Positions 10,113 through 38,734 of a DNA stretch of 54,372 bases are shown here, one piece after another. The stretch spans positions 1 to 54,372 of the forward strand of contig CALMVO010000129.1 in the NCBI GenBank assembly GCA_937873205.1, written 5' to 3'. Position 1 is the first letter of the stretch. Every line of letters starts with the position of its first letter. Made by a program: the position numbers and the translations under genes. The DNA is from an uncultured Acetobacteraceae bacterium (GTDB lineage Bacteria > Pseudomonadota > Alphaproteobacteria > Acetobacterales > Acetobacteraceae). The notes below the pieces were generated by a model. It was not told where the DNA came from. It saw only the letters and a program-made list of their open reading frames with translations, and made no database searches.

Positions 10113-11593
10113 TGCTGACCGATCTCAGCCTAGCGGGCGCACTGCGCGGGCTGGAGCGGCGCGAATTCTCGTCGCGGGAGCTGACACAGGCGCATCTGGA
10201 GGCCATCGAGCAGCTCAACCCGAGGCTGAACGCCTTCATCACGGTCACCGGCGAACAGGCGCTGGAGGCAGCGGAGGCGGCGGACCGGACGAGGGCAGGC
10301 GGCGAAGCGGCGGCGCTGACCGGAGCGCCGTTAGGCATCAAGGACCTGTTCTGCACCGAGGGGGTGCGGACGACGGCGGCCAGCCGGATACTCCAGAACT
10401 TCGTACCGCCTTACGAGAGCACGGTGACGGCGCAGCTGAAGCGCGACGGTGCGGTCGTGTTGGGCAAGACCAACCTCGACGAGTTTGCCATGGGCTCGTC
10501 CAACATGAACTCGGCCTACGGGCCGGTGGAGAATCCGTGGCAGCGGCGGGGCGAGGTGGCCCGGCGCGTGCCCGGCGGGGCGGCGGGTGGACCGCCCGCC
10601 GCGGTGGCGGCCAGGCTACCGCGGGGCGCCACCGGGACCGATACCGGCGGATCGATCCGGCAACCGGCCTCATTCTGTGGCATCGTCGGCATCAAGCCGA
10701 CCTACGGCCGCTGCAGCCGCTGGGGAGTGGTGGCATTCGCAAGTTCGCTCGACCAGGCGGGGCCGCTGGCGCGGACCGTCGAGGATTGCGCGATCCTGCT
10801 GGGCTCGATGGCCGGCTTCGACCCGAAAGACAGCACCAGCGTGGATCGTCCGGTGCCCGACTATCGCGCGGCGTGCGGATGCAGCGTGAAGGGGCTTCGC
10901 ATCGGAGTGCCGGTGGAATACCGCAGTCCGGGCATGTCGGCCGAGATCGAGGCGCTGTGGCGGCAGGGTGTGGACTGGCTCCGCGAGGCGGGATGCGAGA
11001 TCGTCGACGTGTCGCTGCCGCATACGAAGTATGGGCTGGCGACGTACTATATAGTTGCGCCAGCGGAATGCTCCTCCAACCTTGCGCGCTATGACGGGGT
11101 GAGGTTCGGGGAACGCGTCGAGGGCGAGACCCTGGACGCGCTTTACGAGCGGTCGCGGGCGGCGGGGTTTGGGCCCGAGGTCAGGCGGCGGATCCTGATC
11201 GGCACGTACGTGCTTTCGTCCGGCTACTACGATGCCTTCTACCTGCGGGCGCAGAAGGTCCGCAGCCTGATCCTGCGCGATTTTTCGGAGGCGTTCCAAC
11301 GGGTCGATGCGCTGCTGACGCCGACGGCGCCGTCGGCGGCCTTCGCGCAGGGCGAGAAGATGGACGATCCGGTGACGATGTACCTGAACGACATCTTCAC
11401 GGTGCCGGCCAGCATGGCTGGCATCCCCGGCCTGTCGGTTCCGGGTGGTCTCGATGAGGCTGGGCTGCCGCTCGGGCTACAGCTGCTGGGGCGGCCATTC
11501 GACGAGGAGAGCCTGTTCGCGCTGGGCTCGGTCCTGGAAAAGGCGGCCGGTTTCACGCATCTGCCGGCCGTGCGGGCGGGGGCAGCGTCGTGA
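10109..11593 (+). CDS. gatA: Amidotransferase subunit GatA with altered amidase signature, 494 aa
   Basis: Amidase-signature subunit that hydrolyses glutamine and passes ammonia to GatB. Overall length and sequence are normal ([61 protein letters not shown]). The catalytic Lys is K78 and the nucleophile Ser is S182. However, the almost invariant GGSSGGSAA loop, which supplies the cis-Ser of the Ser-cisSer-Lys triad, reads [10 protein letters not shown] (A158, A159; codons 10580-10585). The surrounding 90 bases are extremely GC-rich and also divergent ([10 protein letters not shown] before, RLPRGATG after). Either glutaminase activity is impaired or this stretch is misassembled. The stop overlaps the gatB GTG start. 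Confidence 0.95.
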
Positions 11594-13044
11594 GCTACGA
11601 GATCGCGGGCGAGACGGGTACCTGGGAGCTGGTGATCGGTCTCGAGGTGCATGCGCAGGTGGTGAGCGAGGCGAAGCTGTTCTCGGGCGCCCGGGCAACG
11701 TACGGCGGCGAGCCGAACAGCCAAGTCAGCCTCGTCGACGCGGCGTTTCCCGGCATGCTGCCGGTGATCAATATGAGATGCGTGGCGCAGGCAGTGCGTA
11801 CCGGGCTCGGGCTCGAGGCACAAGTCAACCTGGTGAGCCGTTTCGACCGCAAGAACTACTTCTACGCCGACCTGCCGGCTGGCTACCAGATCAGCCAGTT
11901 CGCGCATCCGATCGTGGGTGCGGGAAAGATCGAGATCGAGCTCGGCGATGGCAGCCGGCGCGAGATTGGCGTGACGCGGCTGCATCTGGAGCAGGATGCC
12001 GGCAAGTCGTTGCATGATCAGAACCCGACGCGGTCGTATATCGACCTGAACCGCGCAGGGGTCGCGCTGATGGAGATCGTCAGCGAGCCGGACATGCGGA
12101 GCCCAGAGGAGGCCGGTGCCTATCTTCGGAAATTGCGAACGATCCTGCGCTACCTCGGCACCTGCGACGGCAACATGGAGGAAGGCTCGCTGCGCGCCGA
12201 CGTGAATGTGTCGGTCCGCAGGGCAGGGGAGGCGTTCCGGACCCGCTGCGAGATCAAGAACGTCAACTCGATCCGCTATGTGATGCAGGCGGTCGAGGCG
12301 GAGGCGAGGCGACAGGTTTCCATTTGGGAGGGCGGCGGGACCGTCGACCAGGAAACGCGGCTGTTCGATCCGCAGCGGGGTCAGACGCGGCCGTTGCGGA
12401 CGAAGGAGGACGCTCACGATTATCGTTACTTCCCGGACCCGGACCTGCTGCCGCTGGTGCTGGAAGAGGACTGGGTCGAAGCGTTGAAGGCGGATCTGCC
12501 GGAGCTGCCGGATGCCAAGCGTGTTCGTTTCGTCTCGGAATACGGGATCTCGCACTATGATGCCGGCGTGCTGGTCGCCGACCAGGCCACCGCCGACTTC
12601 TATGAGATGGTCGCCGGTGGACGGGATGGGCGCCTGGCTGCCAACTGGGTTCTGGGCGATTTCTTCGCGGCGCTGAACCGGACCGGCCGGACCATCGCTG
12701 ATAGCCCGGTAACCGCCGCCGCACTTGGCGGTCTGCTCGATCTCGTCGCCGATGGCACCATCAACGGGCGCATCGCGAAGGACGTGTTCGAGGCGATGGT
12801 GGACACGGGCGAGGGCGCCGCCGCCGTCGTAGAGGCGCGGGGGTTGCGGCAGGTGGTCGATACCGGGCTGATCGACGCCGCGTTAGAGGCCGTGCTCGCG
12901 ACACACGCGGACAAGCTGACCGAATATCGCGGCGGCAAGGAGAAGCTCTTCGGCTTCTTCGTCGGGCAGGTGATCAAGGGCATGGGCGGTAAGGGTAACC
13001 CAGCCCTCGTGAATGACGCACTCCGTCGACGCCTGGCCCAGTGA
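11590..13044 (+). CDS. gatB: Amidotransferase subunit GatB, 484 aa
   Basis: tRNA-binding and kinase/transamidase subunit of GatCAB. The GTG start at 11590 overlaps the gatA stop. Hallmarks: [86 protein letters not shown] and the [12 protein letters not shown] block. The C-terminal YqeY-like tail ends with [23 protein letters not shown]. It is full length and intact, which contrasts with the odd motif in gatA. Confidence 0.97.
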
Positions 13045-13115: not shown

Positions 13116-13208
13116 GGAGGGGTGGCCGAGTGGCTGAAGGCGGCGGTTTGCTAAACCGTTAAAGGGGGTCAACCCCTTTCGTGAGTTCGAATCTCATCCC
13201 CTCCGCCA
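13116..13208 (+). tRNA. tRNA-Ser (GCT); likely left boundary of the prophage-like block
   Basis: A class II tRNA with a long variable arm. Acceptor GGAGGGG pairs with CCCCTCC, the anticodon loop TTGCTAA carries GCT, the variable arm contains AAAGGGGGTCAACCCCTTT, and CCA is encoded at 13206-13208. Composition and gene content change right after it. tRNA 3' ends are common phage attachment sites, but I saw no second copy of the 3' end downstream. Confidence 0.96.
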
Positions 13209-13791: not shown

Positions 13792-13960
13792 ATGGCCGGA
13801 GACTGGGACAGTCTCCAAATTCTACTTAGCCTTCTCGGCCTCGTCTCCACCGGCCACAAAGGTGAAAATATCGTTAAAGCCAGTCGAAATTGTCTTGTAC
13901 AGGCGCCTGCAATTCGCCAGCATTCCGCGTGTTGCCCCTACAGAATGTGGACACCCGGAT

Positions 13961-14242
13961 ATGCCACGCGCCCTCCCCTGGACTCAGGATCAAGACGCTC
14001 GCCTGACCGCGCTGCTCGACCAGCGTGGTTCGACCTTGCGCAAGGCGGCACAGCAGCTCGGCGTTAGCAGGAGTTTCGCACAGCGACGGGCGAAACTCCT
14101 AATGCGACAGAACACGAGATCAATCTGCACCTCCGATCGTGAGGATGCCGGTGCGGCGCCCTTGCCCGCCGGTCACCCAATCACGTGGAGTGCCATAAAC
14201 TGGCATCCGGTCGAGGATCGCGCCCCGGCAGCCCGGCTTTGA
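13961..14242 (+). CDS. Small HTH phage protein, 93 aa
   Basis: The ATG at 13961 gives MPRALPWTQDQDARL. Residues about 7-45 form an Myb/GcrA-like helix-turn-helix (WTQDQDARLTALL then LRKAAQQLGVSRSFAQRRAKLL). The C-terminus carries PLPAGHPITWSAI, a motif I associate with small AsnC-type phage proteins of Acetobacteraceae. It probably binds DNA and regulates the phage. The longer frame from 13862 adds an unlikely N-terminus. A competing frame from 13792 has a plausible ribosome site but an incoherent C-terminus (see rejected items). Confidence 0.55.
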   Translation: MPRALPWTQDQDARLTALLDQRGSTLRKAAQQLGVSRSFAQRRAKLLMRQNTRSICTSDREDAGAAPLPAGHPITWSAINWHPVEDRAPAARL

Positions 14243-15649: not shown

Positions 15650-16090
15650 ATGACGGCGAATGCAGATGCGGCCGTAGACCGCTTTCTCGAGACGCTCAGC
15701 CGCACCGGCAATCCATCCGCCGCATGTCAGGCAAGCCACCTGACCAGGCGATCCGTCAACAGGATGCGTGAGAGCGATCCCGCCTTCGCCAAGGATTACG
15801 ACGAGGCCATGGAGGAGGCAGCCGACCTGCTCGAGGCCGAAGCCTGGCGACGAGCACTAGAAGGAGTTCCACAGCCATTGCTAAGGGCCGGTCAGCCTGT
15901 CTTCGACACCGAAGGCGTTCCAATTACCGTCCGGCGCTACAGCGATCCGCTTCTGGTCATGTTGCTACGTGGCTGCAAGCCGGAAAAGTTCCAGCGACGC
16001 ATCGGGCCATCGGTCATCACACCGGACCCTAATGCTGGCATCAGGGAGATTGCGACTGACGATGATCCCCCGCGCAGCGGGCCGATTTGA
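15650..16090 (+). CDS. Terminase small subunit, 146 aa
   Basis: DNA-recognition subunit of the packaging motor. The N-terminal helix-turn-helix region reads AVDRFLETLSRTGNPSAACQ then LTRRSVNRMRESDPAFAKDYDEA. This is the TerS pattern of a short HTH with an acidic helix (EEAADLLEAEAWRRALEG). The C-terminal part carries VRRYSDPLLVMLLRGCKPEKF, typical of small-terminase relatives. It overlaps the start of terL by 29 bases, so the two are translated together. Confidence 0.85.
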   Translation: MTANADAAVDRFLETLSRTGNPSAACQASHLTRRSVNRMRESDPAFAKDYDEAMEEAADLLEAEAWRRALEGVPQPLLRAGQPVFDTEGVPITVRRYSDPLLVMLLRGCKPEKFQRRIGPSVITPDPNAGIREIATDDDPPRSGPI

Positions 16091-18032
16091 CGGCCATCAG
16101 CGACCGGCGCTGACGCCGGCGCAATGGAGTATCTATGAGGCAGGCTGGGACGAAACAGCGCGGTTTCGGGTCGCAGTGTGTGGACGGCGCTTCGGCAAGG
16201 CGCTGGCACTTGACACCAGTCTGCCATCTCCGGATGGCTGGACCAGCATGGGTAGAGTCCAGATTGGAGACCGCCTATACGATGATCGCGGCCAAGCGTG
16301 CCGGGTTGTCTTCACGACCGAGATCATGCTGGGACGTCCCTGTAACCGTATCGTCTTTGATGATGGCAGCGTCGTCATCGCGGATGATGAGCATCTATGG
16401 CCGGTTTCAGCTCAGGCGGCCTCGGAGCCAGTTCTACTCACCACCCGAGAGATCCGGCTTGGTCTTTCGGCCAGGATGCAGTTCGGGATACGCAGCTGTC
16501 GTTTCCTCAGTGCGGAGGGGGTCGGGGATCGTCATCGCCGGCGCCGCTTGCTCCGTCATCTTTCCAGGCGTCATGGCCGCAAGAATGCGAATGGCACGTG
16601 GCAAGTGTTCGGCTCGGAGGGACTTGTCGAACTGCTCAGACGTCTCTGTATCTCATTAGGTCTTGTTCCCCGGCTCATGAGACAGGATGGCGTCACAGGC
16701 GTTGCTTGGCGAGTTGGACGGGGAGATCGCTGGCGATACATTCTCACGGTTGACCGGATCGCCAGCCGAGCTGTGCGCTGCATCCAGGTGGACAGCCCAT
16801 CCCGGCTGTTCCTCTGCGGTGAGGCTCTTATCCCCACACACAACACCTTTCTCATGGCGGAGGAAATTCGGCGAGCGGCGCGTCTGGCGGTACGGCGCAA
16901 CGTCGGGATCGAGAACGAGATCTGGTACGGCGCACCGAACTTCTTGCAGGCCAAGCGAGTCATGTGGTCTCGACTGAAGCGGGCACTACCGGTCAGCTGG
17001 CTGGCCGGCAAGCCGAACGAGACCAGCTGTATCATCCGGCTTAGATCGGGGCACGTGATCCGTCTTGTCGGGCTTGATGCTTCAGAGAACCTTCGCGGGT
17101 CTGGTCTGTGGTTCTTCGGCGGCGACGAGTGGGCAGATTGTAGACACACGGCCTGGAAGGAAATTCTACGGCCGATGTTGTCTACTTCACGCGGACACGC
17201 GCTCTTCATCGGCACCCCCAAGGGATTCGATCATTTCCGGGATGCCTACCTGCTGGGCCAGCCAGATGGTGATCCGAGCTATCGCTCGTTCATGTTCACC
17301 ACCGCGGATGGGGGTAACGTCCCGGCGGAAGAGATCGCCGCCGCCGAGCGCGAGCTCGACCCCAGGAGCTTCCGCCAGGAATACAGAGCAAGCTTCGAGA
17401 ACTACGCAGGTCGGGTCGTGTATGCCTTCAGCCGTGCTGACAACGTCAAGCGTGCCGATTACGACGCGTCCAGAGCAGTCCATGTCGGGATCGACTTCAA
17501 CGTCAACCCGATGTCAGCGACAATTTGGCAAGAGTATGGCGAGACAATATGCCAGATCGACGAGATCATCCTGCCAACATCGAACACCGATGAAATGGCG
17601 GGGGAGATCGCTCGTCGCTTCGGCCGCGACGGGTTCGAGCCGGGGCAGAAGATGCTGGATCACATCACGGTCTATCCAGATCCCGCCGGAGCTCAGCGAC
17701 GAACGTCGGCGGGCGGCCGGACGGACATCGGGATCTTGCTGCAAAAGGGGTTCAAGGTTTCCGTCCAGCGTTCACACCCGCCGGTCCGCGACAGGATGAA
17801 CGTCATGAACCGGTGCTTCCGAACGGCAGACGACAAGATCATCGCGACGGTCGATCCGCGCTGCGGGAAGTCCATCGAGGCTTACGAGCGGCTGGTGTTC
17901 CGCGATGGAACGGCGGAGCCGGACAAAACTCAGGGCTTTGACCATCTGGTCGATGCGAGCGGCTATTACGTGTTCGGCCGCTATGGAACTCCGTCCACGA
18001 TTGCGACCGTCAGCAGCTTCATGGAGCGCTAG
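16062..18032 (+). CDS. Terminase large subunit with in-frame intein, 656 aa precursor
   Basis: ATPase-nuclease that packages DNA into the prohead. The ATG at 16062, with AGGGAG 13 bases upstream, gives MIPRAAGRFDGHQRPALTP; an upstream ATG at 15969 would lie deep inside terS. The extein Walker A loop CGRRFGK/T is interrupted after the Lys by a 215-residue intein. Walker B is LWFFGGDEWAD, the coupling motif region is HALFIGTPKGFDHF, and the nuclease domain begins HVGIDFNVNPMSATI, with TVYPDPAG and DHLVDASGYYVFG later. The spliced protein would be 441 aa, a normal size. Without splicing the P-loop is destroyed, so packaging depends on the intein. Confidence 0.93.
   Translation: MIPRAAGRFDGHQRPALTPAQWSIYEAGWDETARFRVAVCGRRFGKALALDTSLPSPDGWTSMGRVQIGDRLYDDRGQACRVVFTTEIMLGRPCNRIVFDDGSVVIADDEHLWPVSAQAASEPVLLTTREIRLGLSARMQFGIRSCRFLSAEGVGDRHRRRRLLRHLSRRHGRKNANGTWQVFGSEGLVELLRRLCISLGLVPRLMRQDGVTGVAWRVGRGDRWRYILTVDRIASRAVRCIQVDSPSRLFLCGEALIPTHNTFLMAEEIRRAARLAVRRNVGIENEIWYGAPNFLQAKRVMWSRLKRALPVSWLAGKPNETSCIIRLRSGHVIRLVGLDASENLRGSGLWFFGGDEWADCRHTAWKEILRPMLSTSRGHALFIGTPKGFDHFRDAYLLGQPDGDPSYRSFMFTTADGGNVPAEEIAAAERELDPRSFRQEYRASFENYAGRVVYAFSRADNVKRADYDASRAVHVGIDFNVNPMSATIWQEYGETICQIDEIILPTSNTDEMAGEIARRFGRDGFEPGQKMLDHITVYPDPAGAQRRTSAGGRTDIGILLQKGFKVSVQRSHPPVRDRMNVMNRCFRTADDKIIATVDPRCGKSIEAYERLVFRDGTAEPDKTQGFDHLVDASGYYVFGRYGTPSTIATVSSFMER
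16200..16844 (+). other. Class 3-type intein in terminase P-loop, 215 aa
   Basis: Inserted between GRRFGK and TFLMAEE. It begins ALALDTSLPSPDGWTSMG, so the usual Cys/Ser at position 1 is Ala. Block B reads ADDEHLWPV with Trp at 67 after His65. Block F/G ends LFLCGEALIPTHN with Cys206, His214 and Asn215, and the first extein residue is Thr. Trp, block-F Cys and +1 Thr make the WCT triad of class 3 inteins, in which the internal Cys starts the reaction. Residues about 100-170 (LLRHLSRRHGRKNANGTW, then LVELLRRLCISLGLVPRL) look like a decayed LAGLIDADG endonuclease half, so homing is probably lost. Confidence 0.9.
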
Positions 18033-18035
18033 AGC

Positions 18036-19457
18036 ATGGATTGGCTGGCGCTGCAGTCGCGCATGCCGCGCGACAGTACGATGTCACAACGCAGCTTCAG
18101 GCTGGGAGCGCTGGAGGCCGTGCTCGAGGGGCGGCAATACGATGTCCTGCATCATGCGTTCTCGAAAGAGCGGAGCGACGCGGGGGAATACATCCCGCTC
18201 GATGAGCGGAGACCGTCGGTCCGGACTGGTCTATGCCGTGTTGTCGTGGAGGACTCCGTCTCGCTGCTGTTCAGCGAGGGTCACTGGCCGTCCCTGCGCG
18301 CGTCCGATCCCCATACGGCATCGGTCCTCTCGGACTTGGTGCGGGAGTCCAGGCTCAACGAGACGATGCTCGAGGCGGCGACACGCGGTTCGGTCGGTTC
18401 GGTGGCGATCCAGCTTCGCATCGTGCAGCGTCATGCCTACTTCGAGGTGCTCCCGACGAAATTTCTCTGGCCCATCTGGAGGCGGGATAATCCTCGTGAG
18501 CTGCTGACGGTCACCGAGTGCTACAAGGTGAGCGACCAGGACCTTATTACGCAGGGATATCCAGTCGAGGCGGGATCGGGCCCATGTTGGTTTAAGCGGA
18601 CCTGGGACGATCAGGCGGAGCACTGGTTCCTGCCGGTGCCAATCTCGATCGATCCTACAAAGATGGTGGTGGACGCCGAACGTACGGTCGTCCACAAGCT
18701 TGGCTTCGTACCGATCGTCTGGATCCGCAACATCTCTGGAAGCGGCGGTCATGAGCCAGACGGCCCGGATGGCACCTGTACATTTGCTGCCGGGATCGAT
18801 ACCGTCATTGAGGCAGACTATCTGCTGTCGCAGGCCGGCCGCGGGTTAAAGTATGGCTCCGACCCGACTCTCATCCTGAAGGATCCGTCGGCCGGTTTGG
18901 CCGGTGGCCAGGGTATTCGAACCGGAGGTGCCGCGACGGCGCTGACGTTGCCGCCCGAGGGTGATGCGAAACTGCTGGAGATCAACGGCAACGCGGCCGC
19001 GGCGGTTCTGGCCCATGTTCAGGAGCTGCGAGCCATCGCGCTGGAAGCGATGCACGGCAATCGGGCGCACGGCGATCGACTGGGGTCCGCCCAGAGCGGT
19101 CGGGCGATTGAGCTGATGTGCCAAGGCCTGATCTGGTTAGCCGACCGGCTCCGGATCTCCTATGGCGATGGTGGTCTGCTCGGGCTGCTGAAGATGCTGT
19201 GCCAGGCATCGGCCCGCCTGGAGCGAGGGCTGCTTGTCGCCGGCGAGCCGCATGCGAATCTCGATCCGGCAGGGCTGGCGCTGGTGTGGCCGAGCTGGTT
19301 CCCGGCGAGCTTTGCCGATCGGCAGGCGCAGGCGACCAGCATCACCACGCTGCTTCAGGCGGGCGTGATCGATCAGCAGGCCGCTTTCGACATCGTGGCG
19401 CCGCTCTACGGGCTTGGCGGCCTGCCGCCGCCGTCCGATAGCGATTTGGCCAGTTGA
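18036..19457 (+). CDS. Portal protein, 473 aa
   Basis: Dodecameric portal at the capsid vertex through which DNA enters. It starts 3 bases after terL, the usual portal position. Features fit SPP1 gp6-like portals: an N-terminal helical part, VEDSVSLLFSEGHWP, the wing region VTECYKVSDQ with repeated Trp/Pro strands, PIVWIRNISG followed by a loop containing DGTCTFAAGIDTVIEADYLLS, then the clip/stem helices up to LDPAGLALVWPSWFPASFADRQAQ. The C-terminal ALLQ-type helix pattern (ITTLLQAGVIDQQAAFDIV) is common in portals. Confidence 0.88.
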   Translation: MDWLALQSRMPRDSTMSQRSFRLGALEAVLEGRQYDVLHHAFSKERSDAGEYIPLDERRPSVRTGLCRVVVEDSVSLLFSEGHWPSLRASDPHTASVLSDLVRESRLNETMLEAATRGSVGSVAIQLRIVQRHAYFEVLPTKFLWPIWRRDNPRELLTVTECYKVSDQDLITQGYPVEAGSGPCWFKRTWDDQAEHWFLPVPISIDPTKMVVDAERTVVHKLGFVPIVWIRNISGSGGHEPDGPDGTCTFAAGIDTVIEADYLLSQAGRGLKYGSDPTLILKDPSAGLAGGQGIRTGGAATALTLPPEGDAKLLEINGNAAAAVLAHVQELRAIALEAMHGNRAHGDRLGSAQSGRAIELMCQGLIWLADRLRISYGDGGLLGLLKMLCQASARLERGLLVAGEPHANLDPAGLALVWPSWFPASFADRQAQATSITTLLQAGVIDQQAAFDIVAPLYGLGGLPPPSDSDLAS

Positions 19458-19572
19458 TCTGCGTCAGACCGCTGGGACGCAGTATCGCGAACGACAAGTT
19501 TTCGCCCTCTAAAGCCTCCGCTGCCATGTGGTGACGGGGCCGTGGGCGTATTCGAAAGGACCTGTCCAGCTA

Positions 19573-20118
19573 ATGGCAGAGCAAAGCCCAGATATGCTTG
19601 ATCCGATCGAGGAAAATGTATCCATCGAGACACCGGAGCTTCCTCGGGAGATCAGCGATTACGAGAGAAAGCTCCGACGTGAGGTTGCACGGTATCGGGA
19701 ACAGGCACGTATCGCTCAGAGCGAGCGCGAGATCGCTTGCGCCACTGCGGCCCGTGAGCGTGACGAGGGGATCAAAGCAGCGCGGGAGGAGGCCAGGGGC
19801 CGCGTCCTGCAGGCGGAACTGAAGACGCAGGCGATCCGGTCCGGCATCGTCGATCTCGATGGGCTCCGCTTGGCCGATCTCGATGCGCTGACTGTCAATG
19901 ATGCCGGCGAGGTCGAAGGTGCTGAGCAGGTGATCGCAGCGCTGCGTGAGCGCAAGCCCTACCTGTTCACCTCCGACAAGGGGCCTACGGCTGCGGGAAC
20001 GACGGCGCAGCTCCAGAGACCACCGGTCCCAGCGCAGCCGAGCATCGTGGATGCGCGCAGCCTCAGCCGGGATGCCTGGCAGACAGAACGGGATCGGCTC
20101 CTGGCCGGTTCGCGGTAG
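19573..20118 (+). CDS. Probable capsid scaffolding protein, 181 aa
   Basis: The ATG at 19573 with AAAGGA 12 bases upstream gives MAEQSPDMLDPIEEN. The first third is a charged helical stretch with coiled-coil character (REISDYERKLRREVARYREQ and onward to EEARGRVLQAELKTQA). This is followed by a short domain with IRSGIVDLDGLRLADLDAL and a run of polar Pro/Ala residues before a basic C-terminus. Acidic-helical proteins of this kind between portal and capsid are scaffolds. No protease motif is visible, so prohead maturation may not involve cleavage, or the protease is elsewhere. Confidence 0.75.
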   Translation: MAEQSPDMLDPIEENVSIETPELPREISDYERKLRREVARYREQARIAQSEREIACATAARERDEGIKAAREEARGRVLQAELKTQAIRSGIVDLDGLRLADLDALTVNDAGEVEGAEQVIAALRERKPYLFTSDKGPTAAGTTAQLQRPPVPAQPSIVDARSLSRDAWQTERDRLLAGSR

Positions 20119-20269: not shown

Positions 20270-21643
20270 ATGCCGATCCAGAACTTCCCGTCCCAGCTTC
20301 AGCCAATCATCCAGCAGGGCTTTCTTGCTCGCGAATTTCAGGACGGACTGCAGTCCCGCCTGGGATTTAGGTCCATCGCTGACCGCGAGATCTTCCCGAA
20401 CCGGATCGGTGAGACCGTAACCAAGACCCGCAAGGGCCTGAAGGCGCCCGTAACATCGCCGATGGTCCCCACCGCGAACACCAACTTCGACAACGGCATG
20501 ACGCCGTCGAGCTGGACCGTGGAGCAATACACGCTCACGATCAACCAGTACGGCGACACGATCGACCTGAACATGGTCACGGAAGGTGTCGGCATTGCCA
20601 GCCAGTTCCTGGCCAACGCCAGAACCAACGGCGTGCAGGCGATGCAATCGCTTGACCGCATCGCACGGAACGCCCTCTTTGGAGGCGCCAGCGGCGGCGT
20701 CGGTGGCTATTTGGGTGGTAACACACGTGTCAATACTGCCCTAGCGTCGGCAAGCAAGACCATCTATGTCGACGACGTTCGTGGTTTCCAGAACGTCATG
20801 AACAGCTACGGCCAAGTGGTATCATTGGCATCGACCAGCGGCATGACCGTGACTGTCGGCAGCAACGCCTACACGCTAGCGACCAGCACTGCTGATACGG
20901 TCAACGTCTCGACCGCACCGAACGGGATGTCGGGTAGCCTGACTTTCACCACAAACATCGCCATGACCGATGGTGCCCTGGCGTCGCCCGCGGTTGCCGC
21001 GACCGCCCCGCTGGTTTTACGACCGAATGGCCGGCTGACCACCGCCGCTTTGACCGCACCTGTCGGAACCTATGGGTCCAGCAGCTATGTTCCTGGTGAT
21101 ACGCTGGGCATCCAGACCGTCCTCTCCGCGGTGGCGGCACTCCGGATGAACAACGTTCCGACGGTGGACGGTTCCTATAACTGCTACCTCGACGACCAGC
21201 AGATGCTTGGCTTGTTCCGTGACGCCGACTTCAAGTACCTGTATCGTGGTGCATACGGGACCGAAACCTATCAGGCCGGGTCGATCGTCGAGCTGCTTGG
21301 TGTCCGGTTTGTTCCGACGACCGAGGCCCCCCAGCAGTCGACGCTGGGAGCAGGCCCTATCCACCGCGCGATCGTCTGCGGCAAAGGGGCCCTGATCGAG
21401 GGCGACTACGCCGATGCCGGTCATCGGGACATCCCGGACGCCGAGCAGTCGTTGATGGAGAAGGTCGATAACGTGGTCATGGTCACCCGCGAGCCGCTCG
21501 ACCGTCTGAAGCAGATCATCGCCCAGTCCTGGTACTGGATCGGCGGCTACGCCCTCCCGACCGACGCCACCGCCAGCACGACGATCATCCCGACGGCCAC
21601 GAACAGCTACCTGAAGCGCGGCGTCGTCATCGAGAGTCTCTAG
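20270..21643 (+). CDS. Major capsid protein, 457 aa
   Basis: HK97-fold-type shell protein, inferred from position and pattern. The N-arm is helical (FPSQLQPIIQQGFLAREFQDGLQ). The E-loop-like region includes NRIGETVTKTRKGLK and SSWTVEQYTLTINQYGDTIDLNM. Residues about 160-270 are a Ser/Thr/Val-rich beta insertion resembling the I-domain of P22/N4-like coats. The C-terminal A-domain has NCYLDDQQMLGLFRDADF, ELLGVRFVPTTEAPQQS and ITTREP-like MVTREPLDRLKQIIAQSWYW. A 150-base leader precedes it, and a strong hairpin follows the stop (21655-21678). Confidence 0.88.
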   Translation: MPIQNFPSQLQPIIQQGFLAREFQDGLQSRLGFRSIADREIFPNRIGETVTKTRKGLKAPVTSPMVPTANTNFDNGMTPSSWTVEQYTLTINQYGDTIDLNMVTEGVGIASQFLANARTNGVQAMQSLDRIARNALFGGASGGVGGYLGGNTRVNTALASASKTIYVDDVRGFQNVMNSYGQVVSLASTSGMTVTVGSNAYTLATSTADTVNVSTAPNGMSGSLTFTTNIAMTDGALASPAVAATAPLVLRPNGRLTTAALTAPVGTYGSSSYVPGDTLGIQTVLSAVAALRMNNVPTVDGSYNCYLDDQQMLGLFRDADFKYLYRGAYGTETYQAGSIVELLGVRFVPTTEAPQQSTLGAGPIHRAIVCGKGALIEGDYADAGHRDIPDAEQSLMEKVDNVVMVTREPLDRLKQIIAQSWYWIGGYALPTDATASTTIIPTATNSYLKRGVVIESL

Positions 21644-22694: not shown

Positions 22695-23336
22695 TTGTTA
22701 CAAGCTACCATCAATACCAAGATTTCTCTTGGACTGGCGAAAGCAGCTTCGATCCTGGGAGCCAGTCAGGCGCTCTATCGGCCGTTGACAGCCTACCTAC
22801 CGATTTCCGGTACGCCCTTCGGAAGTATATTCTGCGCGTTCGACGTTAATCCAGACTTCAAAATGATCTCGACAGCGCAGCCGGGTCACAGCTACGTCAC
22901 CCTGCTTGCGGATCCGTCGATCGTTCAGGAGGGCGATTACCTCGTCGGGAATGACATCCATTTTGTCGCCCGGATCGAGCCGCTTCGACCAGTCCTGTGT
23001 GTTCTGTGTAACCAGACCCTAGACTTCCTGGATACTGACATGACGACGATCGCTGGCACGAATGCCTACGGTGGTCGCACGGATGATACCGACGCCATCA
23101 TTGCTCAAGGCTGGCCTGTCAGCATGTCGGCTCGGACCCATTCCGAGCAGGATGTGACGAAACTTCCAAGCGATACGCGATCTGCGTACTATGACGTGCT
23201 GGCACCGCCGATCCCGACTGTTACGCTGACGTTCGGCATGCGTCTGCAAGATGCGAACGGTCAGGACTATGAGATCGTTAGCGCTGAGCTGTCGCTGTTC
23301 GGATGGCGGCTTCTGGTTGGACTCGCGACAACCTAG
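22695..23336 (+). CDS. Head-tail neck protein, unknown family, 213 aa
   Basis: A TTG start at 22695 follows a GAGGCGG element. An alpha-helical N-terminus (INTKISLGLAKAASILGASQALYRP) is followed by a beta-rich part with FVARIEPLRPVLCVLCNQTLDF and a C-terminal TFGMRLQDANGQDYEIVSAELSLFGW, reminiscent of the SH3-like barrel of head-closure or stopper proteins (a sentence-like GxxYxVxxxxxxxxGW ending). The neighbour upstream is a head protein and the one downstream a tail-completion-like protein, which supports a neck role. Confidence 0.55.
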   Translation: MLQATINTKISLGLAKAASILGASQALYRPLTAYLPISGTPFGSIFCAFDVNPDFKMISTAQPGHSYVTLLADPSIVQEGDYLVGNDIHFVARIEPLRPVLCVLCNQTLDFLDTDMTTIAGTNAYGGRTDDTDAIIAQGWPVSMSARTHSEQDVTKLPSDTRSAYYDVLAPPIPTVTLTFGMRLQDANGQDYEIVSAELSLFGWRLLVGLATT

Positions 23337-23386
23337 TTTGCCCTGGTATCTACGCGTTCGTGCTTGGACGGGAGATCATCGGACAG

Positions 23387-25294
23387 ATGGCGGATATTTC
23401 AGACGTAGAGGCGGCCCTCTGCGCACTGGTCGAGACGGCGATCTATCCAACTGGGCTCGCCCAGCCCAGCGTCAGCGGGACGGTGGTCAAGATCTACCGA
23501 GGTTGGCCGATCAACCGAGCCCTCAACGCAGACCTCACGAGTGGCTACCAGACGGTAACGGTCTTCAGCCGCGAGAATACAACTCGGGATACGTCCCGCT
23601 ATCCACGGATCTGGCGAACCTTGAGCCAGACGGCGCCGACGCTTACCCTGGACATTGTCGGCGACACGGCAAGCTTCTCGGGAACAGGTGGCTCGGACCA
23701 GACGGCGGGTCTGACTGTCAACGGCATCGCCTATGCCTGGACTCTGTCGAACACCGATACACCCAGCTCTGTCGCAACCGGCTTTGCAGGGTTGATCGCG
23801 GGTGCAACAGCCGCGGGACCATCCGTGACCATATCGGGTGCGCGGCTGACGGGTCGCGTTGTCGGTAGTGGCACGGCCATCATGGAAACACGGAGGCAAG
23901 AACAGGGAATCATGATCGCGGTCTGGTGCCCGACCCCGACCGGACGGGATCTGCTTGCCTTGAGTATCGACAATGCCTTGTCCGGCACGGATTGGTTTCC
24001 GCTATCCGATGGCACGGTCGCCCGCTTAAAGTATCGTGATACGCTCGAGACTGATGTTTCCGAGAATGCAAATCTCTACCGCCGGAATCTGAACTACCTA
24101 GTCGAATACCCTACGACCATGACCATGACGGGTGCTCAGATGCTGTTCGGCGTCGGCACGCTCAGCGGCACTGGCCCTGAAGTGGGGTTCGGATGTATCC
24201 AGCCACCAACGAAGCTTGTCATTCCACCGCTCGGAGCAATACGCTTCGACGCCTGGTATGATCCATCAAACGTCGTCGATCAGCAATGTTTGGCAGTCCT
24301 CACACCTCCGGAATATCAAAGCCGGCTGCCGTCCAACGCAACCGTCGCGGATGGTGTGGCCTCCTGGCCGCTCGCCACGCAGGCAACAATGGATGCGGAG
24401 ATCGCAGCGGCTTTGCAGGCTGGCTTATCATTTTGGGCATTCGATAGCTACCAGCCAAACGATACCCTAAGTCTCCCCCTCCAGCTTTACCTGAACAGCG
24501 CTCTGCGGGCTCGCCTGAGCTTCTGCATGCTTGGGCAGACGTCGAACTGGGGTGGCGGCGGAACGGATCAGCCCTCGCTCCTCCGCGACATCAGTATGAT
24601 GACGCAGCCTGGTTACATGACCGTGCTCGGCAACAGGCCACTCTACTTGGTGCTGGACTCGTCGGCGGCGCAGACGGCGGGTCTGCCTTCGGGGGGAGTC
24701 CCGGCGGCGATCGCGCTGGTGCGCGAACAGGTTCAGGCGGCCGGCGGCGGTAACCCGTATGTCGTCTGGCTATCTGGCGCGGCGCTGGTGGACTACTCGA
24801 ACGTCAATGCGGCTGAGCTCGCCGGGGCGGATGCATGTGGCGCCTATGCCGTTCCAAGGTTGAATGGTTCAGAGCAGCCTTATGTCTCGCTCACAGCCGT
24901 CGCCCGGAGCGATTGGGCAGATCGTGCGGCAACAGGCTTCGCCATGATACCAACCGCTATGTCTGGCTGGGATCAGAGGCCGTTGATCCAGACGCCGCAG
25001 CCGTTCTATCCGATCCCGGCCTCCCTTAATCTCGAAAACTTCTACGATACTGCAACGAGCCCGGAGCTCGGTGATCATATCGTTGAGATGGTCGACTACA
25101 TCGTCCACAACGTTTCGGCTTGCCCGGCGCAGGTCGGCCTCATTTACGCTTGGAACGAGCTTGCCGAAGGGGGTTGGCTGATGCCGACCTATTCGCCCAA
25201 TGGTCCCGATGCACAACGCGTGGCGGCCGTGGGAGCGGCGCTTGCGGCTGCGGTTCAGCAATCGTCACTTCCCAGTATCGACCTTATCAACTGA
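23387..25294 (+). CDS. Tail-completion-like protein fused to a glycosidase-like TIM-barrel domain, 635 aa
   Basis: The ATG at 23387 follows GGGAG and gives MADISDVEAALCALVETAIYP. Residues 1-245 resemble tail terminator/neck proteins (VVKIYRGWPINRALNADL, then EQGIMIAVWCPTPTGRDLLA, ending NLYRRNLNYLVEYPTT), interrupted at about 85-165 by a beta-sandwich-like Ser/Thr/Gly insert. Residues about 285-620 resemble a GH71/GH99-like (WbsX-type) barrel: RFDAWYDPSN, MDAEIAAALQAGLSFWAFDSY, RPLYLVLDSSAA and the signature YAWNELAEGGWLMPT. It could be a virion-borne glycan-binding or glycan-cleaving domain. The fusion is one open frame with no sign of a frameshift. It lies between the neck genes and the tail sheath. 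Confidence 0.75.
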   Translation: MADISDVEAALCALVETAIYPTGLAQPSVSGTVVKIYRGWPINRALNADLTSGYQTVTVFSRENTTRDTSRYPRIWRTLSQTAPTLTLDIVGDTASFSGTGGSDQTAGLTVNGIAYAWTLSNTDTPSSVATGFAGLIAGATAAGPSVTISGARLTGRVVGSGTAIMETRRQEQGIMIAVWCPTPTGRDLLALSIDNALSGTDWFPLSDGTVARLKYRDTLETDVSENANLYRRNLNYLVEYPTTMTMTGAQMLFGVGTLSGTGPEVGFGCIQPPTKLVIPPLGAIRFDAWYDPSNVVDQQCLAVLTPPEYQSRLPSNATVADGVASWPLATQATMDAEIAAALQAGLSFWAFDSYQPNDTLSLPLQLYLNSALRARLSFCMLGQTSNWGGGGTDQPSLLRDISMMTQPGYMTVLGNRPLYLVLDSSAAQTAGLPSGGVPAAIALVREQVQAAGGGNPYVVWLSGAALVDYSNVNAAELAGADACGAYAVPRLNGSEQPYVSLTAVARSDWADRAATGFAMIPTAMSGWDQRPLIQTPQPFYPIPASLNLENFYDTATSPELGDHIVEMVDYIVHNVSACPAQVGLIYAWNELAEGGWLMPTYSPNGPDAQRVAAVGAALAAAVQQSSLPSIDLIN

Positions 25295-25487: not shown

Positions 25488-27062
25488 ATGGCGCAGATCA
25501 CCCAAGCCGGAGCGTTGAATACCGCGGCGCTCGTCGTTCCCGACCTCTATGTCCAGATTGCCTCTCCGCAGACGCTTGCCCTGAACGGCGTAGCAACCGA
25601 TCGCATCGGCATCGTCGGCACTGCATCGTGGGGGCCGGTCAACCAGCCGGTCGTTCTCGGTAGCATTGCCGACTATAACGCTGCCTTCGGCGCGGTTCTA
25701 CCGCGCCAGTACGACCTCGGCACGCCGCTGGTGTGCGCGCAACAGCAGGGTGCGTCATCATTCGTCGGAGTGAGGGTGACGGATGGGACCGACGTTTCCG
25801 CAACATACGCACTCCTCTACGCCAGCGGCACCTATCCGATGCTGTTGACGGCGGTCTGCTCGGGAACCAGGGGCAACCAGGTCAGTCTCGCTCTCGCGAC
25901 CGGATCGCGGACTGGAAGCTGGAAGCTGACGCTGCAGATGCCCGGCCAGCTGGCCGAGGTTTTCGATAATATTGACGCCACCGCAGGCGCGCCGACATTC
26001 TGGCTGAACCTTGCGAATGCAGTGAACAGCGGCCTGGGATCGACCCGCGGACCATCGGCGCTATGCGTGGCCATCATCGGCAATGGAACATCGACGGTAC
26101 CGGCCCCCGTCAGCGATCAATACCTGCTCAACGGGTCTGACGGTGCGAGCGGCGTTACGGCAACGAGCCTCGTTGGGATGGATGGGTTGTCGCGTACGGG
26201 CATGTATGCGTTGCGTGGGCGTGGCTGTGCGCTGGCCCTGCTCTCGGATTGCGACGATTCAAACCAATGGGTCATACAAAGCTCGTTTGGGCTCTCCGAG
26301 GGCATCTACATGATCCTGGTGAGCCAGAGCGGCGACGGCATCGCCTCGGCGATCCAGACGAAACAGTCGACCGGTCTCGACAGTTATGCCGCCAAGCTGA
26401 TGTTCGGCGATTGGCTGTTCTGGTATGACCAAGCAAACGGACAAACACGCGTCGTCAGTCCACAGGGCTTCGTCGCCGGGTGTTTATCGAGCCTGTCTCC
26501 TGAGCAGTCCAGCCTCAACAAGAGACTGGCCGGTATTGTCGGCAGTCAGAAGAGCGGTCTGGCTTCAAGCGGACAGGCCCTGACCTATTCGTCAGCCGAA
26601 CTGCAGGCGCTGTTCACGGCCGGGATCGATGTGATCTGTAATCCGGCGCCGGGAGGATCATACTGGGCGGCTCGGAGCGGGCATAATAGCTCCAGCAACG
26701 CGGTGATCAGCGGTGACAGCTATACCCGCATGACGAACTTCATCGCCGAGACGCTCGCCGCGGGCATGGGCGGTTATGTCGGGAGCGTGATCAACTCGAC
26801 GCTGCTCTCCAACATTAGGGCGACACTGCTCGGATACCTGTCCAACCTTGTTCAACAGAACATCCTGGGGAGCATTGACGGCAGCCTTCCCTACGCGGTC
26901 GTGTGTGATGGTTCGAACAATCCTCAGTCGAGGACGGCGCTTGGATATGTGCAAGCCGATGTGCAGGTCCAGTATCAGGGGATCAACGAGAAGTTCATCG
27001 TGAACCTACAGGGCGGCCAAAGTGTCACGGTCAGCTCGACGACCAACAATGGACTCAGCTGA
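25488..27062 (+). CDS. Contractile tail sheath protein, 524 aa
   Basis: Forms the contractile outer tube that drives DNA ejection (gpL-like, Mu type). Features: an N-terminal VVPDLYVQIASPQTLALNGVATD, RIGIVGTASWGPVNQPV, and VGVRVTDGTD. Later parts carry YLLNGSDGASGVTATSLVGM, VSPQGFVAGCLSSLSPEQS and the C-terminal attachment domain with YTRMTNFIAETLAAGMG and GYVQADVQVQYQGINEKFIVNLQGGQSV. Length fits the family. It is directly followed by the tube gene, as in Mu and P2. Confidence 0.93.
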   Translation: MAQITQAGALNTAALVVPDLYVQIASPQTLALNGVATDRIGIVGTASWGPVNQPVVLGSIADYNAAFGAVLPRQYDLGTPLVCAQQQGASSFVGVRVTDGTDVSATYALLYASGTYPMLLTAVCSGTRGNQVSLALATGSRTGSWKLTLQMPGQLAEVFDNIDATAGAPTFWLNLANAVNSGLGSTRGPSALCVAIIGNGTSTVPAPVSDQYLLNGSDGASGVTATSLVGMDGLSRTGMYALRGRGCALALLSDCDDSNQWVIQSSFGLSEGIYMILVSQSGDGIASAIQTKQSTGLDSYAAKLMFGDWLFWYDQANGQTRVVSPQGFVAGCLSSLSPEQSSLNKRLAGIVGSQKSGLASSGQALTYSSAELQALFTAGIDVICNPAPGGSYWAARSGHNSSSNAVISGDSYTRMTNFIAETLAAGMGGYVGSVINSTLLSNIRATLLGYLSNLVQQNILGSIDGSLPYAVVCDGSNNPQSRTALGYVQADVQVQYQGINEKFIVNLQGGQSVTVSSTTNNGLS

Positions 27063-27104: not shown

Positions 27105-27530
27105 GTGGGAAATCCCTACAGTATTGGCCGCGACTGCCAAGTCATTCTGCTGTGGAACGGGATAAGGCTGGATCTCCGTGACGTCACCGGTTTCCAGGCA
27201 CAGCAGGAGGTTCGTCAGCAACGCGCTGATCCTCTGAACAGTGTCCCGGTCGAGTTCAATACTCCGGCAGGATGGCGCGGCCAGTTTCAGGTCGATCGTG
27301 GCTCTTCGGCCCTAGACGACCTGATCTCCGCGATCGAGGCGGCATTCTGGAATGCGGGCGTCATCGGGTCAGGGACGATCTACCAGTACATCGCGGAGGC
27401 CGACGGCTCTACCAGCACCTACGAGTTCATCGGGGTCTCGCTGACCTTGACAAGCGCCGGGCATTACCAAGCTGAGAATATTGTCAAACAGACGATCAGT
27501 TTCTATGCCAGTCAGCGGAACCGGGTCTGA
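27105..27530 (+). CDS. Tail tube protein, 141 aa
   Basis: Inner tube subunit (Mu gpM-like). GTG start with AAGGAATAAAGC upstream. The protein is beta-rich, with VILLWNGIRLDLRDVTGFQAQ, VPVEFNTPAGWRGQFQVDRGS, a helix ALDDLISAIEAAFWNAG, and a final sheet TYEFIGVSLTLTSAGHY followed by VKQTISFYASQRNRV. This follows the tube fold order of strand pair, helix, strand pair. The stop overlaps the chaperone start by one base. Confidence 0.88.
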   Translation: MGNPYSIGRDCQVILLWNGIRLDLRDVTGFQAQQEVRQQRADPLNSVPVEFNTPAGWRGQFQVDRGSSALDDLISAIEAAFWNAGVIGSGTIYQYIAEADGSTSTYEFIGVSLTLTSAGHYQAENIVKQTISFYASQRNRV

Positions 27531-28032: not shown

Positions 28033-28056
28033 TTGCCGGGGAGAAGGAGGAAAGTC

Positions 28057-29295
28057 ATGCTCACGTCAACCCGGATCTCCATTGATATGCTTGATCGCGC
28101 AGATCGGGTTCGGGTCCCCGGTCTTCCGAATGCGATCTATAGCGAGAAGTCAGAGAGGACGGCCGGCTCAGATGCGACGCACTCACGGGCGCTGGCCTTG
28201 GCTACTCGCATTGCTCGGGTCACCAACCTGATACCGGTCCCACTACCCAAGGCAATGCTTGTAGTCATTCCCACAAACGAGATCACCACCAATAGTGCTG
28301 AATCACCATCATTGGAAACAAAACGGTCGATGCAGGTGCCGGTGAACGAAAGTCGTAAAGATTTGGCGGTATCGGCGGCTAGAGCAACTTCTCTAAATAC
28401 AATCTTATTATCAACGAAAGATCTTGGAAAGAGCAAGTTTTTGGAAGCTCTCGCGCCAAAATCACGTTCTGCGCTGAGCGCAATTACTTCAGTGAACAGG
28501 CTGTCACCTTCGACATTGAGCTCTCAGAATGACGCGCCAAGCTTACCGCGCCCGTCGATGCCACCTGGTGTGATTGCTGCCATAGATACCAATCGAGCCG
28601 ACGGTATAGTCGCTAAACGCCGGAGCGATAAGCCATTGCCCATGAAGTTGGTCGATGAGGTACTTGCGGCTTCGACAAGTACATCCACGCATGAGACGCG
28701 GTTGCCGGCACCCATCGCCATCATGTCGAAAATGCCTGTAGGCTTGGCGGGTGCGGTGCTCCGGCATCCCAAACGACCGGATTTAGAGACTAAACAGACC
28801 GCTCGATCAGCTACAGCCCTTGGACTAGCGGCCGTCCTGAAGTCTCACCGCACGGACCGGGTAAGCGACCAGTTGGCCGGCAACGCGGAACGCCGCGGCT
28901 CGGTACCGATGTGGTTGCCAGGCCGGGGTTCACCAGGACCTCGGTCCGGCTTGGAAGACATGTCAGATAGCCAGTCAGACCTGCGGCAGAGGGCGGTTCC
29001 GACGATATCCGCTCCAACCCATTACCGAACGCAAGACCAGGAAGCGGTGCGACGAAATCCGACTTTGTCGGCTCCGGCTCAAGCTACCCAAGGAGAGAAC
29101 ACCGATAGCGGTGCGCGATCGCTGGCACCGTCCCAAACCATAAATATCGTGGGAGCGCTCACGGTAGATAACCGTCGCCTCGGTCACCTAACCGCATCGT
29201 CCCAGGCCCGAGAAGCATCGCTACCGGCCCGCGGTCCGTCTCGGGTCAATCTTCGCGCGGTGCCAATCTTCTCAGGTATGAAAATTCCATCATGA
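28057..29295 (+). CDS. Probable tail tape measure protein, short and atypical, 412 aa
   Basis: AAGGAGG lies seven bases before ATG 28057. Its place between the frameshifted chaperone and the N-like gene is that of the tape measure. It is short for this role and has no clear membrane span or long coiled coil. It is instead Ser/Thr/Ala/Pro/Arg-rich, with many short hydrophobic segments (for example LATRIARVTNLIPVPLPKAM). Near the C-terminus TINIVGALTVDNRRLGHL recalls the ITI(T/N)GPxTI motif at the end of many tape measures. By the known rule of about 0.15 nm per residue it would set a tail near 60 nm (inference). A non-tape-measure role cannot be excluded. Confidence 0.6.
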   Translation: MLTSTRISIDMLDRADRVRVPGLPNAIYSEKSERTAGSDATHSRALALATRIARVTNLIPVPLPKAMLVVIPTNEITTNSAESPSLETKRSMQVPVNESRKDLAVSAARATSLNTILLSTKDLGKSKFLEALAPKSRSALSAITSVNRLSPSTLSSQNDAPSLPRPSMPPGVIAAIDTNRADGIVAKRRSDKPLPMKLVDEVLAASTSTSTHETRLPAPIAIMSKMPVGLAGAVLRHPKRPDLETKQTARSATALGLAAVLKSHRTDRVSDQLAGNAERRGSVPMWLPGRGSPGPRSGLEDMSDSQSDLRQRAVPTISAPTHYRTQDQEAVRRNPTLSAPAQATQGENTDSGARSLAPSQTINIVGALTVDNRRLGHLTASSQAREASLPARGPSRVNLRAVPIFSGMKIPS

Positions 29296-30182: not shown

Positions 30183-30189
30183 GGATCCC

Positions 30190-36893: not shown

Positions 36894-36969
36894 CGACCTG
36901 CTCCCGGAACGGCCTGAGTATGGTGCCTGCTCGGTTGCCAATCAGTTAAGGGCGATGTCCCGCCTTCCA

Positions 36970-38634: not shown

Positions 38635-38734
38635 CACGGGTTCCGGCCGGCCTGAGCGCGGTGGTGCCGCATAAATCGGCATGCGGCAAGGCTTGGCATT
38701 GACCGCGGACCGAAGGGCTGACTATGGCTCCGAC

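Follow-up and report, generated by a model that had tools for sequence, protein, structure and literature searches.

The DNA considered here (hereafter the window) is a stretch of 54,372 nucleotides, contig CALMVO010000129.1 of an uncultured Acetobacteraceae bacterium (assembly GCA_937873205.1). It carries a cluster of phage-type structural genes in which the gene for the terminase large subunit (TerL), terL, is interrupted by an intein of class 3, a class defined by Trp at position B:12, Cys at F:4 and Thr at G:5 (the WCT signature; PMC5222942). The gene and its intein comprise the following features, where the counts refer to the 59 distinct inteins defined below.

16062 to 18032, forward strand: terL precursor gene, an open frame of 656 amino acids (aa) from the ATG at 16062, overlapping the end of the gene for the terminase small subunit (terS); PHROG terminase large subunit matches at 3.4e-30 and 7.4e-28.
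16062 to 16199, forward strand: N-extein, ending GRRFGK with the Walker A Lys; ungapped at the junction against 7/7 insert-free homologues.
16200 to 16844, forward strand: class 3 intein of 215 aa, Ala1 to Asn215, assigned from the frame, homology, predicted fold and residue conservation.
16341 to 16343, forward strand: Cys48, aligned with the redox partner Cys48 of MsmDnaB1; Cys in 56/59.
16392 to 16394, forward strand: His65, block B:10; 59/59.
16398 to 16400, forward strand: Trp67, block B:12, the W of WCT; 59/59.
16530 to 16685, forward strand: remnant of a second LAGLIDADG half, residues 111-162, from profile comparison; LLRHLSRRHG in place of LLRGLMDTDG, the catalytic Asp lost.
16779 to 16781, forward strand: Cys194 (in VRC), block F:4, the C of WCT and predicted first nucleophile; 59/59.
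16815 to 16817, forward strand: Cys206 (in LFLCG), not F:4; 38/59, and Ala in the structures 6rix and 6bs8.
16836 to 16844, forward strand: Thr213 (G:5, the T of WCT), His214 and Asn215; each 59/59.
16845 to 18032, forward strand: C-extein, with Thr +1 as its first residue, from translation and comparison with homologues.

It is seen from the translation that the insert takes up residues 47-261 of the 656-aa precursor, begins with Ala1, contains His65, Trp67 and Cys206, ends with His214-Asn215 and is followed by Thr, just as an initial annotation made from the sequence had described it, and that 441 aa are left once it is removed, the product length which that annotation had given. The insertion point lies between Lys46 and Thr47 of the mature TerL, i.e., in the ATP-binding (Walker A) loop, as had been annotated. 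The P-loop Lys/Thr site is a classic insertion point in TerL, described for the TerL1-a inteins of mycobacteriophages (PMC5050341), and intein removal from two TerLs is mentioned in PMC7947584. When the exteins are joined, they align without gaps around the junction, as GRR(F/W)GK followed by T or S, with all seven of the insert-free homologues, which are those of the Komagataeibacter phage phiKX1, of the genomes G160, G187 and G265, two further copies in the genome G005, and the viral contig L002.

The assignment to class 3 is based on homology, fold and residues. With phmmer against solved structures, the insert matches the DnaB inteins of Mycobacterium chimaera and M. smegmatis (MchDnaB1 and MsmDnaB1; three chain sequences, at 8.4e-29, 4.3e-28 and 6.8e-28), so that the alignment with class 3 inteins of the Hedgehog/intein (Hint) fold, which had been set beforehand as the test of the annotation, is clear. 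The structure prediction proposed at the same time was carried out with AlphaFold2 on a seven-row alignment and gives a model of the Hint fold with a mean pLDDT of 85.9 and a pTM of 0.75; with this model Foldseek finds the same two mycobacterial DnaB inteins as the best matches (7.8e-12), and VIA-align superimposes them with Z of 22.1-22.2 (22.2 to 6rix) and an rmsd of 1.5-1.8 Å over 127-130 residues. As for the residues, Ala1 stands where other inteins would have Cys, Ser or Thr, Trp67 is at B:12, Cys194 (not Cys206) at F:4 and Thr213 at G:5, and His214-Asn215 is followed by Thr. The insert is thus a class 3 intein in TerL, as initially annotated, and by itself it is a fresh member of an already known class. 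It is noted that searches of the insert against Pfam and NCBIfam give no match at E 1 and that the Pfam intein-splicing family has zero matches in the whole genome, so that Pfam-type annotation may overlook this class 3 intein.

To place the catalytic residues, relatives were collected with a hidden Markov model of the alignment A1 against 148 sequences (147 loci and the window), which gave 99 complete inteins, with three partial matches (L111, L116 and L119) set aside; dropping identical ones left 59 distinct inteins, including that of the window. His65, Trp67, Cys194, Thr213, His214 and Asn215 are present in every one of them. Since residue 1 is Cys in three of the 59, the mark that they share is the WCT signature and not residue 1. 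It should be pointed out that the patterns with which the loci were sought held the HLW and RPC stretches, so that the counts for His65, Trp67 and Cys48 arise partly by construction, while Cys194, Cys206 and Thr213 are in none of these patterns. In the phmmer alignments Cys194 is aligned with Cys124 of MchDnaB1 and Cys118 of MsmDnaB1, and Thr213 with the Thr that precedes His-Asn in both. The WCT residues are Trp67, Cys124 (catalytic) and Thr143, along with His65, in MchDnaB1 (PMC7664689), and Trp67, Cys118 and Thr137 in MsmDnaB1 (PMC6195587).

The initial annotation had rightly taken Trp67 as the W of the signature, but it had read Cys206 as the block-F nucleophile and Thr +1 as the threonine, and both of the latter are wrong, the threonine being Thr213 at G:5. 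A case for Cys206 (LFLCG) as the class 3 nucleophile could be made from its presence in all eight inteins that occupy this same TerL site. However, Cys206 is aligned with Ala in both of the solved class 3 inteins, where Cys194 falls on the catalytic Cys, and it is replaced by Ala, Val or Ile in 21 of the 59 distinct inteins, whereas Cys194 is lacking in none; the proposal is hardly credible. Because the F:4 nucleophile is Cys194, the C206A control that had been suggested would hit the wrong residue. The eight same-site inteins have all the splice residues intact, together with Cys48, Cys34 and Cys206. A side observation concerns Cys34 (16299-16301), which is present in 46 of the 59, and Cys206 (16815-16817): both occur in 34 inteins, Cys34 alone in 12, Cys206 alone in four and neither in nine, the rows being related to each other, and from this co-occurrence the two may possibly form a structural pair.

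Based on the established class 3 splicing route (PMC5222942; PMC7664689), on which our scheme is modelled, the window intein would be expected to splice as follows. The Lys46-Ala1 peptide bond would be attacked by Cys194, with His65 and Thr213 activating this Cys and Trp67 packing against it. The acyl group would then move from Cys194 to Thr +1, Asn215 would cyclise, and an acyl shift would give the mature 441-aa TerL. Since the insert separates the Walker A Lys from the Thr, the precursor would be unable to hydrolyse ATP as long as these two residues are kept apart, and packaging would therefore wait on splicing.

A further proposal is that splicing acts as a switch, where the oxidation of Cys48 and Cys194 would hold the packaging motor as an inactive precursor, by analogy with the pair in MsmDnaB1. 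Both cysteines are kept in all eight same-site inteins, and in MsmDnaB1 the matching Cys48 forms a disulfide with the F:4 Cys (PMC6195587). However, Cys48 of MsmDnaB1 is itself required for splicing (PMC6195587), so that its conservation requires no redox role, and the Cys at this position is common to nearly all of the distinct inteins, which come from many settings. We consider such a switch unlikely. A yet more specific version seems to us quite improbable. In it the cluster would be a domesticated gene transfer agent with a contractile tail, and the homing-dead intein would have been kept over a span of several genera as a gate that acts after translation on the packaging ATPase, so that the motor could form only once splicing had taken place and would be paused by Cys48/Cys194 oxidation.

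We now turn to the homing function. Among the inteins of at least 300 aa, 46 of 47 carry a motif of the LLRGLMDTDG type, where the window intein reads LLRHLSRRHG in register; the catalytic Asp of this LAGLIDADG (DOD) motif is thus lost, and of the two LAGLIDADG halves the first is entirely absent and the second is a remnant. Against the profile of the second half the window intein scores 10.1 bits, the best of 360 shuffles reaching 6.0. In the same single-sequence test L121 scores 7.2 bits, just above its shuffles, L001, L049, L050 and L051 fall below the shuffle ceiling, and L052 and L053 are not among the matches listed. Because only the window row stood clear of the shuffles and L121 just above them, a family profile was needed: with seven rows it matches the second half with a probability of 79.4 and a score of 31.4, which none of 100 column shuffles reached (best 27.7). 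The model secondary structure over residues 111-171, helix-strand-strand-helix-strand-strand, agrees with such a remnant. That the middle of the intein is a decayed second LAGLIDADG half, as the initial annotation had supposed, is therefore supported for the family. In the genome G001 the same-site intein has 153 aa and the remnant is gone. The insert no longer has the means to spread, while it retains every residue required for splicing.

The gene that holds this intein belongs to a structural cluster of about 23 kb (window 13700-36950) with head, packaging and contractile tail genes. The neighbouring features, including both flanks, are as follows.

11590 to 13044, forward strand: left host flank, a gene which we take to be gatB from recall of its sequence; adjoins the cluster also in G001, G002 and G003.
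13116 to 13208, forward strand: tRNA-Ser(gct) adjoining the cluster; used as att site by a related prophage in G265, with no second copy found in the window.
13862 to 14242, forward strand: possible DNA-binding regulator at the cluster start; PHROG 323 transcriptional regulator at 2.4e-5, Pfam HTH_23 at 0.0075, below the cut-off; kept in 6/6 other cluster genomes.
15650 to 16090, forward strand: terminase small subunit; PHROG 4044 at 6.7e-29.
18036 to 19457, forward strand: portal protein; PHROG 145 at 5.1e-9.
19528 to 20118, forward strand: head scaffolding protein; PHROG 194 at 9.2e-7.
20270 to 21643, forward strand: major head protein; PHROG 1357 at 4.1e-53.
25488 to 27062, forward strand: contractile tail sheath; PHROG 23 at 1.1e-45.
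27105 to 27530, forward strand: probable tail tube, by position; PHROG 12993, of unknown function there, at 1.2e-43.
28033 to 29295, forward strand: open reading frame (ORF) in the tape-measure position, at most about 420 aa; no PHROG match.
29292 to 34751, forward strand: tail/baseplate region with ORFs at 29292, 30261, 31393, 31826, 32350 and 33453; PHROG tail or baseplate matches in 5/6, that at 29292 matching families of unknown function.
34806 to 36089, forward strand: tail fibre; PHROG 863 tail fibre assembly at 1.2e-12.
36135 to 36941, reverse strand: glycosyltransferase-like gene that stays with the cluster; PHROG 1574 (unknown function) at 2e-32 and 34859 (glycosyltransferase) at 0.00075.
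37789 to 38682, reverse strand: uppP/bacA, right host flank; Pfam BacA at 1.6e-66; adjoins the cluster also in G001, G004, G005 and G105.

Two of the cluster proteins differ in length from their phiKX1 counterparts. In a 663-aa protein (window 23303-25294) the N-terminal 290 residues match a phage family and the remainder gives no sequence match in Pfam or the PDB; its counterpart in phiKX1 has just 293 aa, and G001, G002, G003, G004, G005 and G105 all retain the long form. The ORF in the tape-measure position has at most 374-499 residues in six clusters (any Met, Val or Leu being accepted as the start), as compared with 742 residues of the matching phiKX1 protein, annotated as hypothetical; going by ORF length, this could mean a shorter tail than that of phiKX1.

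The intein is present in all five genomes of the genus of the window. In the family sample 18 of 397 genomes have a match to A1, seven of them at the terL site, and in the class sample the matches are three of 385, with two of the three from the genus of the window (membership of genus and family being taken from taxonomy codes). The cluster itself occurs in seven Acetobacteraceae genomes of three genera (g1, g2 and g102). From terS to the tail fibre it is colinear with the window in G001, G002, G003, G005 and G105, and also in G004, where it lies on two contigs. The flank with gatB and tRNA-Ser is common to G001, G002 and G003, the gene at 13237 is found in all other cluster genomes except G004, and the flank with an SGNH hydrolase and uppP is common to G001, G004, G005 and G105. 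The cluster side of uppP is empty in G160 and G310, and in G187 and G265 uppP and TerL are more than 1 Mb apart or on different contigs.

The mobility of the cluster was judged from the integrases and the repeats. In 299 genomes of the family there are 13 TerL places (E up to 1e-40), seven with a long TerL, i.e., with the intein, and six with a short one. Of the short TerLs, four have a Pfam tyrosine integrase 15-22 kb away (that in G310 broken by a stop), and the other two are on contigs of less than 10 kb. Near the seven long TerLs no Pfam tyrosine integrase was found on the cluster contigs of G000, G002, G003, G004 and G005, nor within 160 kb of the cluster in G105 and 500 kb in G001. A second copy of the tRNA-Ser end, with up to five mismatches, was likewise not found in the window or in the stretches read of G001, G002, G003, G005 and G105. 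The same searches do find both marks of an active temperate phage, integrase and attL/attR, in G265, where a related intein-less prophage with an integrase lies at the tRNA-Ser(gct) beside gatB, 62.5 kb between perfect 26-base tRNA-Ser repeats (L200 6319-7300 to L201 10857). This prophage is a plausible picture of the ancestor of the cluster, and its place at the same tRNA-Ser, with no second copy in the cluster genomes, suggests that the cluster arose from such a phage and later lost integration. The setting in a contractile phage, as the initial annotation put it, can thus be kept as regards the contractile structural cluster, while the word phage has become doubtful, with no integrase detected and the cluster tracking its hosts, as shown below. 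Genes of phiKX1 for the integrase, dam, DnaQ, antirepressor, XRE and KilA-N were also tried as a mark by their absence from the cluster, and this was dropped, because four prophage stretches are without matches to them as well and the comparison does not separate cluster from prophages. Separately, G005 has three related terminases on separate contigs, one with the intein and two without (L171-L172, L182 and L183).

The G265 prophage could be read in another way, namely that the class 3 intein of the window belongs to a prophage of the ordinary kind, now partly decayed, and that repeated entry by phages of one family at the tRNA-Ser(gct) beside gatB, not descent, explains the shared flanks. 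This is also in accord with the lower G+C content of the cluster (60.9% against 68.4% in the flanks) and with the occurrence of temperate contractile phages in acetic acid bacteria, one of them at a tRNA-Ser site (PMC8566455). However, it leaves unexplained that neither tyrosine integrase nor att repeat was found with the intein-bearing clusters, that a nearly identical reduced gene set recurs across seven genomes, and that the cluster remains next to uppP in G105 and G005, where the stretches read contain no tRNA. Moreover, the divergence of the cluster parallels that of the hosts: over the seven genomes the identity of the host GatB correlates with that of the cluster with r 0.88 (Mantel test, 22 of 5040 label permutations as high) and with that of the intein with r 0.85 (3 of 5040), and for cluster against intein 8 of 5040 permutations are as high. 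By contrast, the prophage of G160 is 96.5% identical to phiKX1 of Komagataeibacter, another genus. The ordinary-prophage reading is therefore improbable in our view. The tree of the cluster and a tree of three host proteins, which from recall of their sequences we take to be GatB, MetG and PrkA, share with strong support the clade of the five-genome genus and the pair of G002 and G003, and in the intein tree (105 columns; seven near-copies dropped) a clade at 98/85, where the bootstrap is rough, unites seven of the eight same-site inteins.

Against G004 the dN/dS is 0.065 for the head gene, 0.127 for the C-extein, 0.134 for the portal and 0.194 for the intein, with 0.102 for gatB; pS is 0.54-0.70 for the head gene, C-extein, portal and intein and 0.55 for gatB, and since some other genes are saturated, the estimates are rough. 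If the intein or its terminase were dead and the cluster a fossil, the fast divergence of some tail genes could be understood, the ORF at 33453 having dN/dS of 0.34 and 0.41. But all computable values across the compared genes are 0.05 to 0.41, the splice residues are intact in all of the same-site inteins, and three of the dN/dS alignments contain a stop, which in each case lies either ahead of the likely start or at the C-terminus. We thus regard a fossil as very unlikely.

As to what the cluster might do, its evolution with the host rather than as a mobile phage (the three-genus support being only 81/81) and the purifying selection on head, packaging and tail genes, estimated roughly near saturation, are as would be expected of a gene transfer agent. 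Tailocins consist of tail genes without head and packaging genes, and since terminase, portal, scaffold and head genes are present here, a tailocin is disfavoured. A gene-transfer-agent-like particle and a PBSX-like killing particle would both fit the cluster.

Taken together, we propose that the class 3 intein of the window is homing-dead and has been inherited along with a cluster that is domesticated and possibly gene-transfer-agent-like, a reading that we hold to be highly probable. Its basis is the homology, the fold, the residue conservation, the empty sites, the shared locus, the host-like divergence and the purifying selection; splicing itself would follow by analogy with the class. 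As the cluster has seemingly been inherited by descent in one Acetobacteraceae lineage, the intein would have been passed on with the cluster and not by homing. Besides the G265 prophage and the lower G+C content, several points weigh against this proposal. The uppP flank is lacking in G002 and G003, where the stretches read show uppP at another place and without a neighbouring cluster gene, and the gatB flank is lacking in G005 and G105. The integrase search covered tyrosine integrases. In the host tree the branch that sets the seven cluster genomes apart has a support of only 81/81, below the mark for strong support, and in a tree of GatB alone their three-genus grouping is not seen. The intein of G005 falls outside the same-site clade in the best tree, though the test does not reject one clade for all eight (AU 0.377). 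The dN/dS comparison is affected by near-saturated synonymous sites, and several of its ratios are not computable. Finally, a lower protein carbon cost is a trait of some gene transfer agents, and compared with prophage homologues it is not lower in the portal, head or sheath, and in TerL it is slightly lower with overlap.

It is useful to compare the window with known systems. The mycobacterial DnaB class 3 mini-inteins (MchDnaB1, 6rix; MsmDnaB1, 6bs8) share with it Ala1, D62, H65, W67, the F:4 Cys, T-H-N, the Hint fold and Cys48, and they differ in that the window intein has a TerL host, Thr +1, about 70 more residues in the middle and the extra Cys34 and Cys206. The TerL1-a inteins (PMC5050341) have the same Walker A insertion point in terminase, though in another terminase family and taxon, whereas the window intein lies in an inherited cluster. 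The TerL intein of Rhodobacter phage RcTiptonus has the WCT signature and sits between Lys and Thr of GGGK/T, but it is 335 aa long with an intact LLQGLMDTDG, in a phage record of 94 kb. The Bvi IcmO intein of Burkholderia vietnamiensis, compared by description, is also a class 3 intein in a proteobacterium and was shown to splice, but in a plasmid gene of another kind with Cys +1 (PMC5222942). The TerL intein of Caulobacter phage phiCbK is similar in having a Lys/Ser site in TerL and a non-nucleophilic residue 1 and in coming from an alphaproteobacterial phage (PMC3556154); our alignment has Phe in the W position and Val in the T position, so that it is not WCT and was discarded as a class 3 precedent.

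On the side of the cluster, the gene transfer agents RcGTA, BaGTA and BhGTA are, by description, likewise phage-derived structural clusters that evolve with the host (PMC9662315), and the window cluster differs from them by a contractile sheath gene, phiKX-like ancestry and the TerL intein. Phage regions without excision genes in Acetobacteraceae of peat moss (PMC12142844) have in common with it the host family, structural and packaging genes and Mu/P2-like baseplate domains; as far as the description in that account goes, they differ in their flanking genes and come with no intein or inheritance test. The temperate Komagataeibacter phage phiKX1 has 62% identity in the TerL C-extein and a similar order of head and tail genes, but it is 53 kb long, with integrase and regulators, and has no intein. 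A search of the open-licence literature gave, among the best matches, no report on a contractile gene transfer agent, an intein or this cluster in Acetobacteraceae, and the virome study of peat moss (PMC12142844) comes closest.

The initial annotation had seen the interest of the intein in an extension of class 3 to an alphaproteobacterial phage. The range of class 3 inteins is reportedly treated by Tori and Perler in a paper of 2011. With tblastn and an E limit of 1e-3, a comparable segment is found in 348 phage records. The complete W-C-T signature is found in the TerL of RcTiptonus, and a block A, the Cys at F:4 and a terminal THN occur together in Escherichia phage ECD7, Vibrio phage 489E54-1, Stenotrophomonas phage SOVA965 and an Endozoicomonas plasmid, three of these four also showing the block B Trp by a simple pattern, which missed SOVA965. 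General searches of the intein literature, none aimed at that phage, turned up no paper on the RcTiptonus intein. Because public records of phages of Rhodobacter, E. coli and Vibrio already contain class 3 TerL inteins, the claim of a wider range is weak, and the data already include a class 3 intein from a phage of the Alphaproteobacteria. In addition, the splicing of a class 3 intein from the proteobacterium B. vietnamiensis has been demonstrated (PMC5222942) and the phiCbK TerL intein has been in print since 2012 (PMC3556154). Two other class 3 groups were noticed. G001 has a second class 3 intein (L055 1501-2550, 350 aa, with an intact LLQGLMDTDG) in a protein that by eye resembles another phage terminase. 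A third group (L054 1495-2589 and L123-L131, about 365 aa, starting near Pro-Leu-Ala, in another protein that by eye is terminase-like) occurs in nine Acetobacteraceae genomes, namely G019, G040, G067, G146, G189, G220, G221, G367 and G412.

The setting of the intein is more interesting than its taxonomic range. The main point is that a mobile element unable to home has nevertheless been retained in a phage motor gene over three genera, within a cluster that is itself seemingly immobile. It offers a natural test of how inteins persist after the death of the endonuclease, whether because they are hard to delete from an active site or because they are useful. The cluster, in turn, offers the Acetobacteraceae a candidate gene transfer agent with a contractile tail, or a candidate for some similar particle.

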